Of a stretch of DNA of 35,203 nucleotides, positions 26,498-29,714 are shown one piece after another. The stretch spans positions 1-35,203 of the forward strand of contig JAUVJU010000006.1 of NCBI GenBank assembly GCA_030592285.1, written 5' to 3'. The notes beneath the pieces are model-generated. The model was not told the DNA's origin and did not search any database. It worked only from the letters and a program-made list of their open reading frames with translations. Position numbers and translations under genes: made by a program. This stretch comes from Caldifarciminota bacterium. GTDB lineage: Bacteria; Hydrothermota; 32-111. How positions within the stretch are numbered: the first letter of the stretch is position 1; each line of letters begins with the position of its first letter.

Positions 26498-26526
26498 TCC
26501 GGTTTTTTTTGAAAGGAGGACTCCCA

Positions 26527-27987
26527 ATGAGAAGATTTGTTACTATATTTTTAATTATTGCACTTGTATTTATATTAGGTGCTATTTCATCAACTATTGT
26601 AAAAGAAGCAATGGCAAAAGATTCCGTAATAATAGAAACTATTGATAATAACAATATTCTGAATCCTAATGCTTCATTCCGTGACTTGGCATCATCAATA
26701 ACACCTGCGGTTATTCATATTAGTTCTATTTCAACAGTTAATACGCAATCATTCTCACCATTTAATGATCCCTTTTTTAAATACTTTTTTAAGGAAATGC
26801 CTGAAATGGAAAGAAAAAATACTTCAATGGGGTCAGGATTTATCTGTAATAAAGATGGATATATTGTTACCAATAATCATGTTGTAAAAAATGCAGAAAA
26901 GATAACAATAAAACTACCTGACAACAGAGAATTCTCAGGTGATGAAATAGAAGTAATAGGCACTGATAATAGAACAGATATTGCAGTATTGAAAATTAAA
27001 ACAAATAAAGACCTGCCATATATCCCCTTTGGGAACTCTGATAATATCATGGCTGGCGATTGGGTAATGGCTGTTGGGAATCCCTATGGATTTGACGGCA
27101 CTGTTACAGTTGGAGTTATTTCAGCAAAAAACAGATCTAATCTTTCAATGAGAAATGCACCTGTTTATCAGGATTTCATTCAGACAGATGCTTCCATTAA
27201 TCCTGGTAATAGCGGAGGTCCACTTGTTGACATTCATGGAAGCGTTATTGGTGTTAATGCTGCCATTGTTTCACCATCAGGCGGTAATGTGGGTATTGGA
27301 TTTGCAATACCATCAAATATGGTTTTAATGGTTGTAGAACAACTTATAGAAAAAGGAACTGTTACAAGAGGCTATTTGGGGATTTATCCTCAGGAATTAA
27401 CAAAGGAACTTAAAGAGAAATTCGGAATTAAGAAATCTGAAACAGGAGTGCTTGTAGCACAGGTAGAGAAAGATACTCCTGCAGAAAAGGCAGGGCTTGA
27501 AGAAGGAGATATTATAGTAAGTTTTGATTCTAAGACAGTAAAAAATGTGAATGATTTTAGAATTTCTGTTGCAAAAACCCCTATTGAGAAAAATATTGAA
27601 ATTATAGTGATTAGAGATAAAAAGAAAAAATCAATTATGGTAATGCTTGGCAAACTTGAAGATGAAGCAAAAATTAATAATGAAAATAATGATATTAAAT
27701 CATCTAAGTGGATGGGATTAGAAGCAGAAAACATTACATCTTCAAATAAAGAGAAATTTGGAACTATTGTGAATGATGGTGTAATCATCACCCATGTTAA
27801 TAGTAATTCACCCATTATTGAGGCGGGCTTGAGAATTGGTGATGTTATAGTTAAAATTGAGGACTTAAAGATCAGTAATATTAATGATTATAATGAAGCG
27901 GCAGATAAGTATAAAGATAGAAAAAGCCTTCTATTAACTGTAAAAAGAGGACGAATAAATATTTGGGTTGTTATCAATCTGAAATAG
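26527..27987 (+). CDS. degP: HtrA/DegP-family periplasmic serine protease with two PDZ domains
   Basis: DegP-type proteases degrade or refold damaged proteins in the periplasm. From ATG 26527 (AGGAGG eight bases upstream) the product is 486 residues. A longer in-frame TTG start 18 nt upstream would run through that ribosome site and is less likely. Residues 1-30 form a signal/anchor. The trypsin-like domain has His118 in VTNNHVV, Asp151 in DNRTDIAVL and Ser229 in NPGNSGGPL, all intact. Two PDZ domains follow, the first around GYLGIYPQEL and KAGLEEGDIIVSFD, the second around APIIEAGLRIGDVIV-like sequence. It is cotranscribed with a sigma factor and a LytM-fold protein. HtrA genes are commonly part of envelope-stress responses. 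Confidence 0.95.
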   Translation: MRRFVTIFLIIALVFILGAISSTIVKEAMAKDSVIIETIDNNNILNPNASFRDLASSITPAVIHISSISTVNTQSFSPFNDPFFKYFFKEMPEMERKNTSMGSGFICNKDGYIVTNNHVVKNAEKITIKLPDNREFSGDEIEVIGTDNRTDIAVLKIKTNKDLPYIPFGNSDNIMAGDWVMAVGNPYGFDGTVTVGVISAKNRSNLSMRNAPVYQDFIQTDASINPGNSGGPLVDIHGSVIGVNAAIVSPSGGNVGIGFAIPSNMVLMVVEQLIEKGTVTRGYLGIYPQELTKELKEKFGIKKSETGVLVAQVEKDTPAEKAGLEEGDIIVSFDSKTVKNVNDFRISVAKTPIEKNIEIIVIRDKKKKSIMVMLGKLEDEAKINNENNDIKSSKWMGLEAENITSSNKEKFGTIVNDGVIITHVNSNSPIIEAGLRIGDVIVKIEDLKISNINDYNEAADKYKDRKSLLLTVKRGRINIWVVINLK

Positions 27988-27999
27988 TGAGGCACACTT

Positions 28000-28842
28000 A
28001 TTATAATATATGATTTCAATGATAAATCACTGCAAATATACTTAAGGGATATTAAAGCTTTTCCTCTTATTAAACCCGAAGAGGAAAAGAGACTTGCACG
28101 CCTGATAAAAAATGGAGATGCATTAGCTCTTGAAAAATTAATTCAGGCAAATTTACGATTCGTTGTAAGTGTATCAAAAGAATACCAAAATAAAGGTTTA
28201 TCCCTTTCTGAAATAATAAATGAAGGAAATTATGGATTAATAATTGCTGCAAGAAAATTTGATCCTGATAAAAATGTGAAATTTATTTCCTATGCAATAT
28301 GGTGGATCAGACAATCAATTATGAAAGCAATACTTGAAAATTCAAATAATATTAGAATTCCTCTTTCCCAGATAAATAAAATCAACAGAATTAAAAGAGC
28401 AAAAAATGAAATCATTGATGAAACAGGAGATTTACCAAGTATTAAGGAATTAGCAAAAAGATTAGACCTATCTGAAAATGAAATAAATAATGCAATAAAA
28501 TTGAATAAGACCGAATTATCATTACATACTCCATTATCCGGAGACGATAATTTGTATCTTGCCAATACAATAGCACAGACAAGATTTCTCACACCTGAAG
28601 AATCATTTTTAAGGAGAAGATATAAGGAAGTGCTTAAAACACAATTAGATAAATTATCAGAAAGAGAAGCATATATATTGAGAATGTATTTTGGTCTGGA
28701 TGACAATCGCCCTCATACACTTGAAGAAATCGGAACAAAATTAAATATTTCAAGAGAACGAACCAGACAATTAAAGGAAAGAGCAATAAAAAAATTGAAG
28801 GATTTAACAAGAGGCACATTAGAGCCATATAGGAAAAAATGA
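28000..28842 (+). CDS. rpoD: Sigma-70 family (primary-type) sigma factor; no canonical start codon
   Basis: The open frame from 27991 encodes a complete region 1.2-4 sigma factor of about 280 residues: DKSLQIYLRDIKAFPLI (1.2), ANLRFVVSVSKEYQNKGLSL and EIINEGNYGLI (2.1-2.2), FISYAIWWIRQSIMKAI (2.3-2.4), ETGDLPSIKELAKRL (3.0-3.1) and TLEEIGTKLNISRERTRQL (region 4 helix-turn-helix). Region 1.1 is absent. No ATG, GTG or TTG lies in frame before GTG at 28276, which would delete regions 1.2-2.2. I place the start at ATT 28000, seven bases after a GAGG site. One missing G near 28012 in the real genome would give ATG GAT TTC and a natural N-terminus, so an assembly indel is an equal alternative. It overlaps the next gene by 4 nt. 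The symbol is tentative; this could be an RpoS-like paralogue. Confidence 0.85.
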   Translation: MIIYDFNDKSLQIYLRDIKAFPLIKPEEEKRLARLIKNGDALALEKLIQANLRFVVSVSKEYQNKGLSLSEIINEGNYGLIIAARKFDPDKNVKFISYAIWWIRQSIMKAILENSNNIRIPLSQINKINRIKRAKNEIIDETGDLPSIKELAKRLDLSENEINNAIKLNKTELSLHTPLSGDDNLYLANTIAQTRFLTPEESFLRRRYKEVLKTQLDKLSEREAYILRMYFGLDDNRPHTLEEIGTKLNISRERTRQLKERAIKKLKDLTRGTLEPYRKK

Positions 28843-29714
28843 AAAGAAGAAAATTAAAGATATCTATTATACCTCATGGTACAGAAAAAATTAGGGCAAC
28901 ACGATTTTTTATAATTATTTTGCCTGTCATTGCGATAATTATTTTGTGTATTTCAATATTTATTACAACTATGACAATTATAAATATTGGAAATATTAAG
29001 GATTACAGATCTATAAAGAAAATGCGTGAGAATATTGCAATACTTACAATTAAGAATAGAGAATCCAAAAAAGCAATTGATGAGATTGAAAAGGGCATTG
29101 GGGAACTTCAAAAAAAAACATCTGATATACTTCCCTATTATAATTATATGTCAGGAATTGCTCGTTCAGATACATTCAATCTAAAACTTCCGACAAATAC
29201 AGATTCTTTACTCACATTTTCCGATTATATTATACTTACCTATAATAGTATTTTTGAGGCAGTAAAAAATCCATCTTATGCCAATAAGATTCCCACAATT
29301 ATTCCTGTTAGCGGTTGGGTTTTTAGGGACTTTGGAAATATAATAGATCCTTATACTGAAACAGAAAGATTTAATCCGGGAATAATAATTGTTGCTAATG
29401 AGGGAGAAAATGTATATGCAGCAGGAGATGGTTATATTTTATTTGCCGGAGATAAACCTAAATTAGGTCAAACTATAATTATTAAACATACAAAGGACAT
29501 TACAACTACATATGCTCATTTATCAAGCATAAAGATTGATGCTGGAAAAACAGTGAAAAAGGGTGAGATTATTGGATACATTGGAAAATCAGGGAAAGTG
29601 CTTGCACCATCATTATTTTTTGAAATAACAAGAAATGATAAACCAATAAATCCAAGAAATGCTTTTCTTGTTCCCCTTTATGATCTTTATGATTCATTAA
29701 GTATAAACTTATAA
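28839..29714 (+). CDS. LytM/M23-fold protein with degenerate metal site
   Basis: This 291-residue protein has one N-terminal membrane helix (about 22-50), a short coiled coil (60-95) and a C-terminal M23 domain (155-275). The fold is clear from AAGDGYILFAG, GQTIIIKHTKDITTTYAHLSS and GEIIGYIGKSGK. However the zinc ligands are lost. The first His and the Asp of the HxxxD motif are Asn179 and Ile183, and both histidines of the HxH motif are Ser258 and Phe260. Only the YAHL His227 remains. It therefore should not be an active endopeptidase and may act, like EnvC or NlpD, as a regulator of a cell wall amidase. It overlaps the sigma gene by 4 nt. Its last 28 bases overlap the convergent lytic transglycosylase gene. 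Confidence 0.85.
   Translation: MKRRKLKISIIPHGTEKIRATRFFIIILPVIAIIILCISIFITTMTIINIGNIKDYRSIKKMRENIAILTIKNRESKKAIDEIEKGIGELQKKTSDILPYYNYMSGIARSDTFNLKLPTNTDSLLTFSDYIILTYNSIFEAVKNPSYANKIPTIIPVSGWVFRDFGNIIDPYTETERFNPGIIIVANEGENVYAAGDGYILFAGDKPKLGQTIIIKHTKDITTTYAHLSSIKIDAGKTVKKGEIIGYIGKSGKVLAPSLFFEITRNDKPINPRNAFLVPLYDLYDSLSINL

Follow-up and report, generated by a model that had tools for sequence, protein, structure and literature searches.

The DNA analysed here, referred to as the window, is a stretch of 35,203 nucleotides from a Caldifarciminota bacterium (GenBank assembly GCA_030592285.1, contig JAUVJU010000006.1). The operon of interest comprises three of its forward-strand genes. The upstream gene is htrA (26509..27987, +), with a TTG start in the list of open reading frames and a TAG stop at 27985-27987; it encodes a Do-family serine protease with trypsin and PDZ domains, which matches TIGR02037 at 476 bits against a cut-off of 416. 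It is followed by a gene for a sigma-70-family factor of 280 amino acids (28000..28842, +) and then by an M23 peptidase gene (28839..29714, +; Peptidase_M23, 94 bits), whose ATG overlaps the sigma stop codon (ATGA). The order htrA-sigma-M23 recurs in relatives within the family and also in two further families, one belonging to the same class and one more distant within the phylum.

The sigma factor contains regions 1.2, 2, 3 and 4, with the Pfam entries Sigma70_r1_2, r2, r3 and r4 all above their gathering scores. It falls below the cut-offs of both the RpoD C-terminal profile TIGR02393 (219 bits against 354) and the RpoS profile TIGR02394 (233.9 bits against 378.7), and the nearest solved structures are SigA/RpoD and RpoS chains. 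A 575-residue RpoD on contig C16 of the same genome passes TIGR02393 with 363.9 bits; therefore the window gene encodes an accessory, not the primary, sigma factor, namely a second one that is RpoD-like without region 1.1. The original prediction had taken it for the main sigma factor and a housekeeping gene, a role that belongs to the RpoD on the other contig.

Read in the sigma frame, the htrA stop (TAG 27985-27987) is followed by TGA (27988-27990) and then by GGC ACA CTT ATT (28000) ATA ATA TAT GAT TTC, after which the frame runs without a stop until TGA 28840-28842. Between TGA 27988 and GTG 28276, this frame contains no ATG, GTG or TTG. The GTG, its first canonical codon, is codon 92 counted from ATT and lies deep in region 2; the next canonical codon is ATG at codon 107. 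Gene finders restricted to ATG, GTG and TTG would shorten the product to 188 of its 280 residues, cutting off region 1.2 together with the greater part of region 2.

A Shine-Dalgarno (SD) core, GAGG (27989..27992, +), can be read directly in the sequence 7 nt upstream of ATT 28000. Its duplex energy is -6.4 against the consensus anti-SD, the standard sequence being used in place of the host's own because the window-genome assembly yielded no 16S gene. Both the absence of ATG, GTG and TTG and the GAGG seven bases ahead of ATT had been described in the original prediction, and our reading agrees with it at every position. We propose AUU at 28000..28002 (+), which ranked best in the start survey of the window genome, as the start codon; the ATA codons at 28003 and 28006 (+), spaced 10 and 13 nt from the SD, are less likely, although a simpler start-scoring scheme favoured ATA 28003 over ATT 28000.

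The window genome can be compared with four relatives (G001-G004), which together with it make up all five available species of the family, in three genera and in separate public assemblies (one contig is labelled with a coverage of 164). The sigma proteins of the four are 62-67% identical to that of the window, and the five proteins are about 0.9 amino-acid changes per site apart, as summed from the tree. A usable canonical start is absent from all five species; instead, the homologous place holds an SD and a near-cognate codon, ATA in G001, G002 and G003 and ATT in G004 and the window, with ATT 28000 aligned gap-free to the SD-spaced ATA of G001 and G003. An in-frame TTG lies five codons further in in G001, and an ATG ten codons further in in G004, neither with an SD. 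Comparison with close relatives was a check named beforehand, and all four of them speak for the proposed start at ATT in having no usable canonical start and in keeping ATT or ATA with the SD site. The third base of the start codon has switched between A and T within the family and is G in none of the five. Five concordant genomes are not five independent events, because the species share ancestry, and the lack of G at this single base, taken alone, would be weak evidence of selection. When the start sites of the five genomes were folded, no common hairpin appeared, and the window has no match in Rfam.

The same genomes bear on three explanations that dispense with an unusual start. One is a sequencing or assembly error in which a base lost at about 28012 conceals a normal ATG: a single added base would make ATG GAT TTC, and the window comes from a metagenome-type assembly of 205 contigs. 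A lost G at 28012 had indeed been suggested as the alternative. The suggestion fails on the relatives, which have AAA, AGG or AAG at the codon that the added G would make into ATG; all four likewise have no ATG there, and each has an SD with ATA or ATT at the same position. Because these are separate assemblies with the same lack of a canonical start, an error in the window is most improbable as the cause.

A second explanation is that read-through of htrA, or a frameshift, yields an HtrA-sigma fusion for which a start codon is needless. In the window htrA and the sigma gene do lie in one frame, separated by TAG TGA, but these are two successive stops. In each of the five genomes 10-20 nt lie between the htrA stop and the sigma start, and in G002 and G001/G003 the htrA stop falls in the two frames other than that of sigma, with the SD retained after or across it. 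A conserved fusion is ruled out because the htrA frame differs among the family genomes, and we give the explanation as a whole next to no credence.

Lastly, the gene could be decaying and give only a shorter protein, from GTG 28276 or the later ATG, or none at all. The window does have no canonical start ahead of region 2; against decay stand the intact 280-codon frame, a coding signal and a conservation that extend over regions 1.2-4 across five species, and the conserved operon. We consider decay highly unlikely, if marginally less so than the other two.

How unusual such a start is in these genomes can be judged from samples of 578, 320 and 253 kb, in which a hand count puts near-cognate starts at roughly one gene per 100. 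In a survey of starts covering 440 genes (578 kb) of the window genome, no gene has a larger margin for a non-canonical start than sigma; nadE (ATT or ATA) ranks second and infC fourth, the third being method noise. Within the first 284 kb (226 genes), sigma is the gene that suffers most from a forced canonical start, with 76 codons of coding signal lost on the measure used. Surveys of G004 and G002 likewise picked up sigma and infC. Several candidates were discarded: radical SAM and maf genes of the window genome start at a good ATG and represent method noise, and the near-cognate look of pcrB in G002 probably comes from a sequence slip at the poly-A run that immediately precedes it. Apart from start codons, the word GGGTTNNNAACCC has about 20 occurrences over many contigs of the window genome, whereas relatives have 0-5 and the reversed control has 0; it is perhaps a regulator site or a repeat.

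In E. coli and other bacteria, infC starts at AUU, AUA or AUC and is autoregulated by IF3. The infC starts found here (ATT in the window genome, ATT or ATC in G001-G004 and ATA in a neighbouring family) match expectation because of this known rule, and the ATT of the window genome's own infC supports the parallel with infC that the original prediction had drawn.

Other family genes use such starts too, and for this reason the near-cognate start may reflect a lineage habit: the family would accept these codons in about 1% of its genes, and the AUU/AUA of the sigma gene would have no regulatory meaning. Near-cognate codons with a good SD are indeed found at four further genes. In nadE of the window genome (L072:2959-3741, contig C9), AGGAG is followed by ATT ATA, with no canonical start before a TTG in the P-loop region; nadE of the relatives starts at ATG. 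An M16-type peptidase gene (L104:17140-18288, contig C26 of the window genome) has AAAGGAG and an ATA start, and no close relative of it was found in G001 or G002. The DUF4159 gene has an SD and CTG in G001-G004 (L158:5442-4789, minus strand, in G004; further loci L217, L218, L220 and L219) and ATG in the window genome. In the thiD2-thiE fusion, GGAGG with ACG in G004 (L171:7397) and G002 (L212) is aligned with GGAGG and ATC in the window genome (L215), and G001 and G003 have ATG. Against a mere habit, nadE, DUF4159 and thiD2-thiE each revert to ATG in at least one species; of the five genes that include sigma and infC, these two alone are near-cognate throughout the five genomes.

A second lineage of the phylum, showing the same change in the sigma gene, also argues against habit. 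A close homologue of the sigma factor is present in 38 of 147 genomes of the phylum, and outside the family its start is almost always ATG, TTG or GTG. In another family, the homologue L016 has ATA with an SD where sister genera carry ATG or GTG, and in L009, from the same genus, ATA is the probable start, TTG being too near the SD (the two loci come from genomes G011 and G023). A near-cognate sigma start requires two changes on the tree, and the ATA of L009 and L016 is apparently a second, independent gain. On balance a lineage-wide tolerance with no regulatory meaning is a serious rival but the less likely one, and as the cause of conservation we hold regulation to be about twice as probable as a relaxed start habit.

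Two features of the initiation machinery were considered as sources of relaxed starts. A scan for the initiator-stem motif found initiator tRNAs with anticodon CAU in four of the five family genomes, each confirmed as tRNA-Met by ARAGORN, and gave no hit in G004. A special initiator tRNA was dismissed, as none of the four genomes with hits has an initiator with an anticodon for AUA or AUU. In IF3, the motif DYGK of most bacteria aligned is DFGK in G001-G004 (L036-L039). This Tyr to Phe change does not track relaxed starts, because the window genome's own IF3 (L040) keeps Tyr, and it was rejected as their cause.

The explanation we favour, with some confidence, is that the accessory sigma factor is translated weakly from AUU/AUA in an IF3-sensitive manner and is in part supplied by translation of htrA. 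An ordinary CAU initiator tRNA would begin at AUU 28000, directed there by the SD that closely follows the htrA stop. By the precedent of infC, IF3 would reject AUU and AUA, and because IF3 discriminates against such codons, sigma output would be low and would track the IF3:ribosome ratio. To judge by the spacing, ribosomes finishing htrA 10-20 nt upstream would supply part of the initiation and tie the sigma level to htrA expression; coupling of this kind is likely. The low output would probably stop the accessory factor from competing with RpoD. Translational control through the sigma start codon is plausible by analogy with systems already described.

Of these, infC shares its codon class with the sigma start. 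It differs in being autoregulated through its own product, whereas the window sigma factor would be a target only. The closest parallel by type of gene is Streptomyces sigR, for which IF3 represses translation from GTC, and SigR goes up when GTC is replaced by ATG, GTG or TTG or when IF3 is impaired (Feeney et al. 2017, PMC5472188). Both are sigma genes with a conserved non-canonical start and an SD, for which low synthesis is expected, and we propose the same role for IF3. The sigR start, however, is GTC/GTT and its host an actinobacterium; its IF3 effect was measured, whereas that on the window gene is proposed from sequence. Moreover, SigR is regulated with the anti-sigma gene rsrA in its operon, whereas the neighbours of the window sigma gene are htrA and the M23 peptidase gene. 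In S. aureus, ccpN (AUA), cvfC1 (AUU) and citZ (AUA) use non-canonical starts, those of ccpN and cvfC1 being conserved; in poor medium the AUA/AUU sites yield about 10% of the output from AUG, and ccpN reaches as much as 30% when the medium is rich (PMC13009471). These genes resemble ours in their codons, and ccpN too encodes a transcription regulator, but it is a repressor, and their SDs are long and extended where that of the window is moderate. The weak AUU start of E. coli pcnB, reported to restrict expression (cited in PMC9410913), is similar, but pcnB encodes a poly(A) polymerase and no sigma factor.

That a sigma factor can be limited by a non-canonical start is thus already known from Streptomyces sigR. 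The present case is new in its start codon, sigma class and phylum and in having no adjacent anti-sigma gene; the literature searched, which left out most subscription journals, yielded no sigma factor with an AUU or AUA start. A more tentative and rather doubtful extension is that infC and sigma in all species, and in part DUF4159 and thiD2-thiE, might form a translational regulon that responds to IF3 availability across the genera of this WOR-3-type family, in which the IF3 level would set a transcription programme via the sigma factor. If the favoured explanation is true, Streptomyces sigR would be joined by another, independent example of limitation through the start codon, found in an unrelated phylum and in a different, unrelated sigma class, which would suggest that the use of IF3-sensitive starts to limit sigma factors is recurrent.
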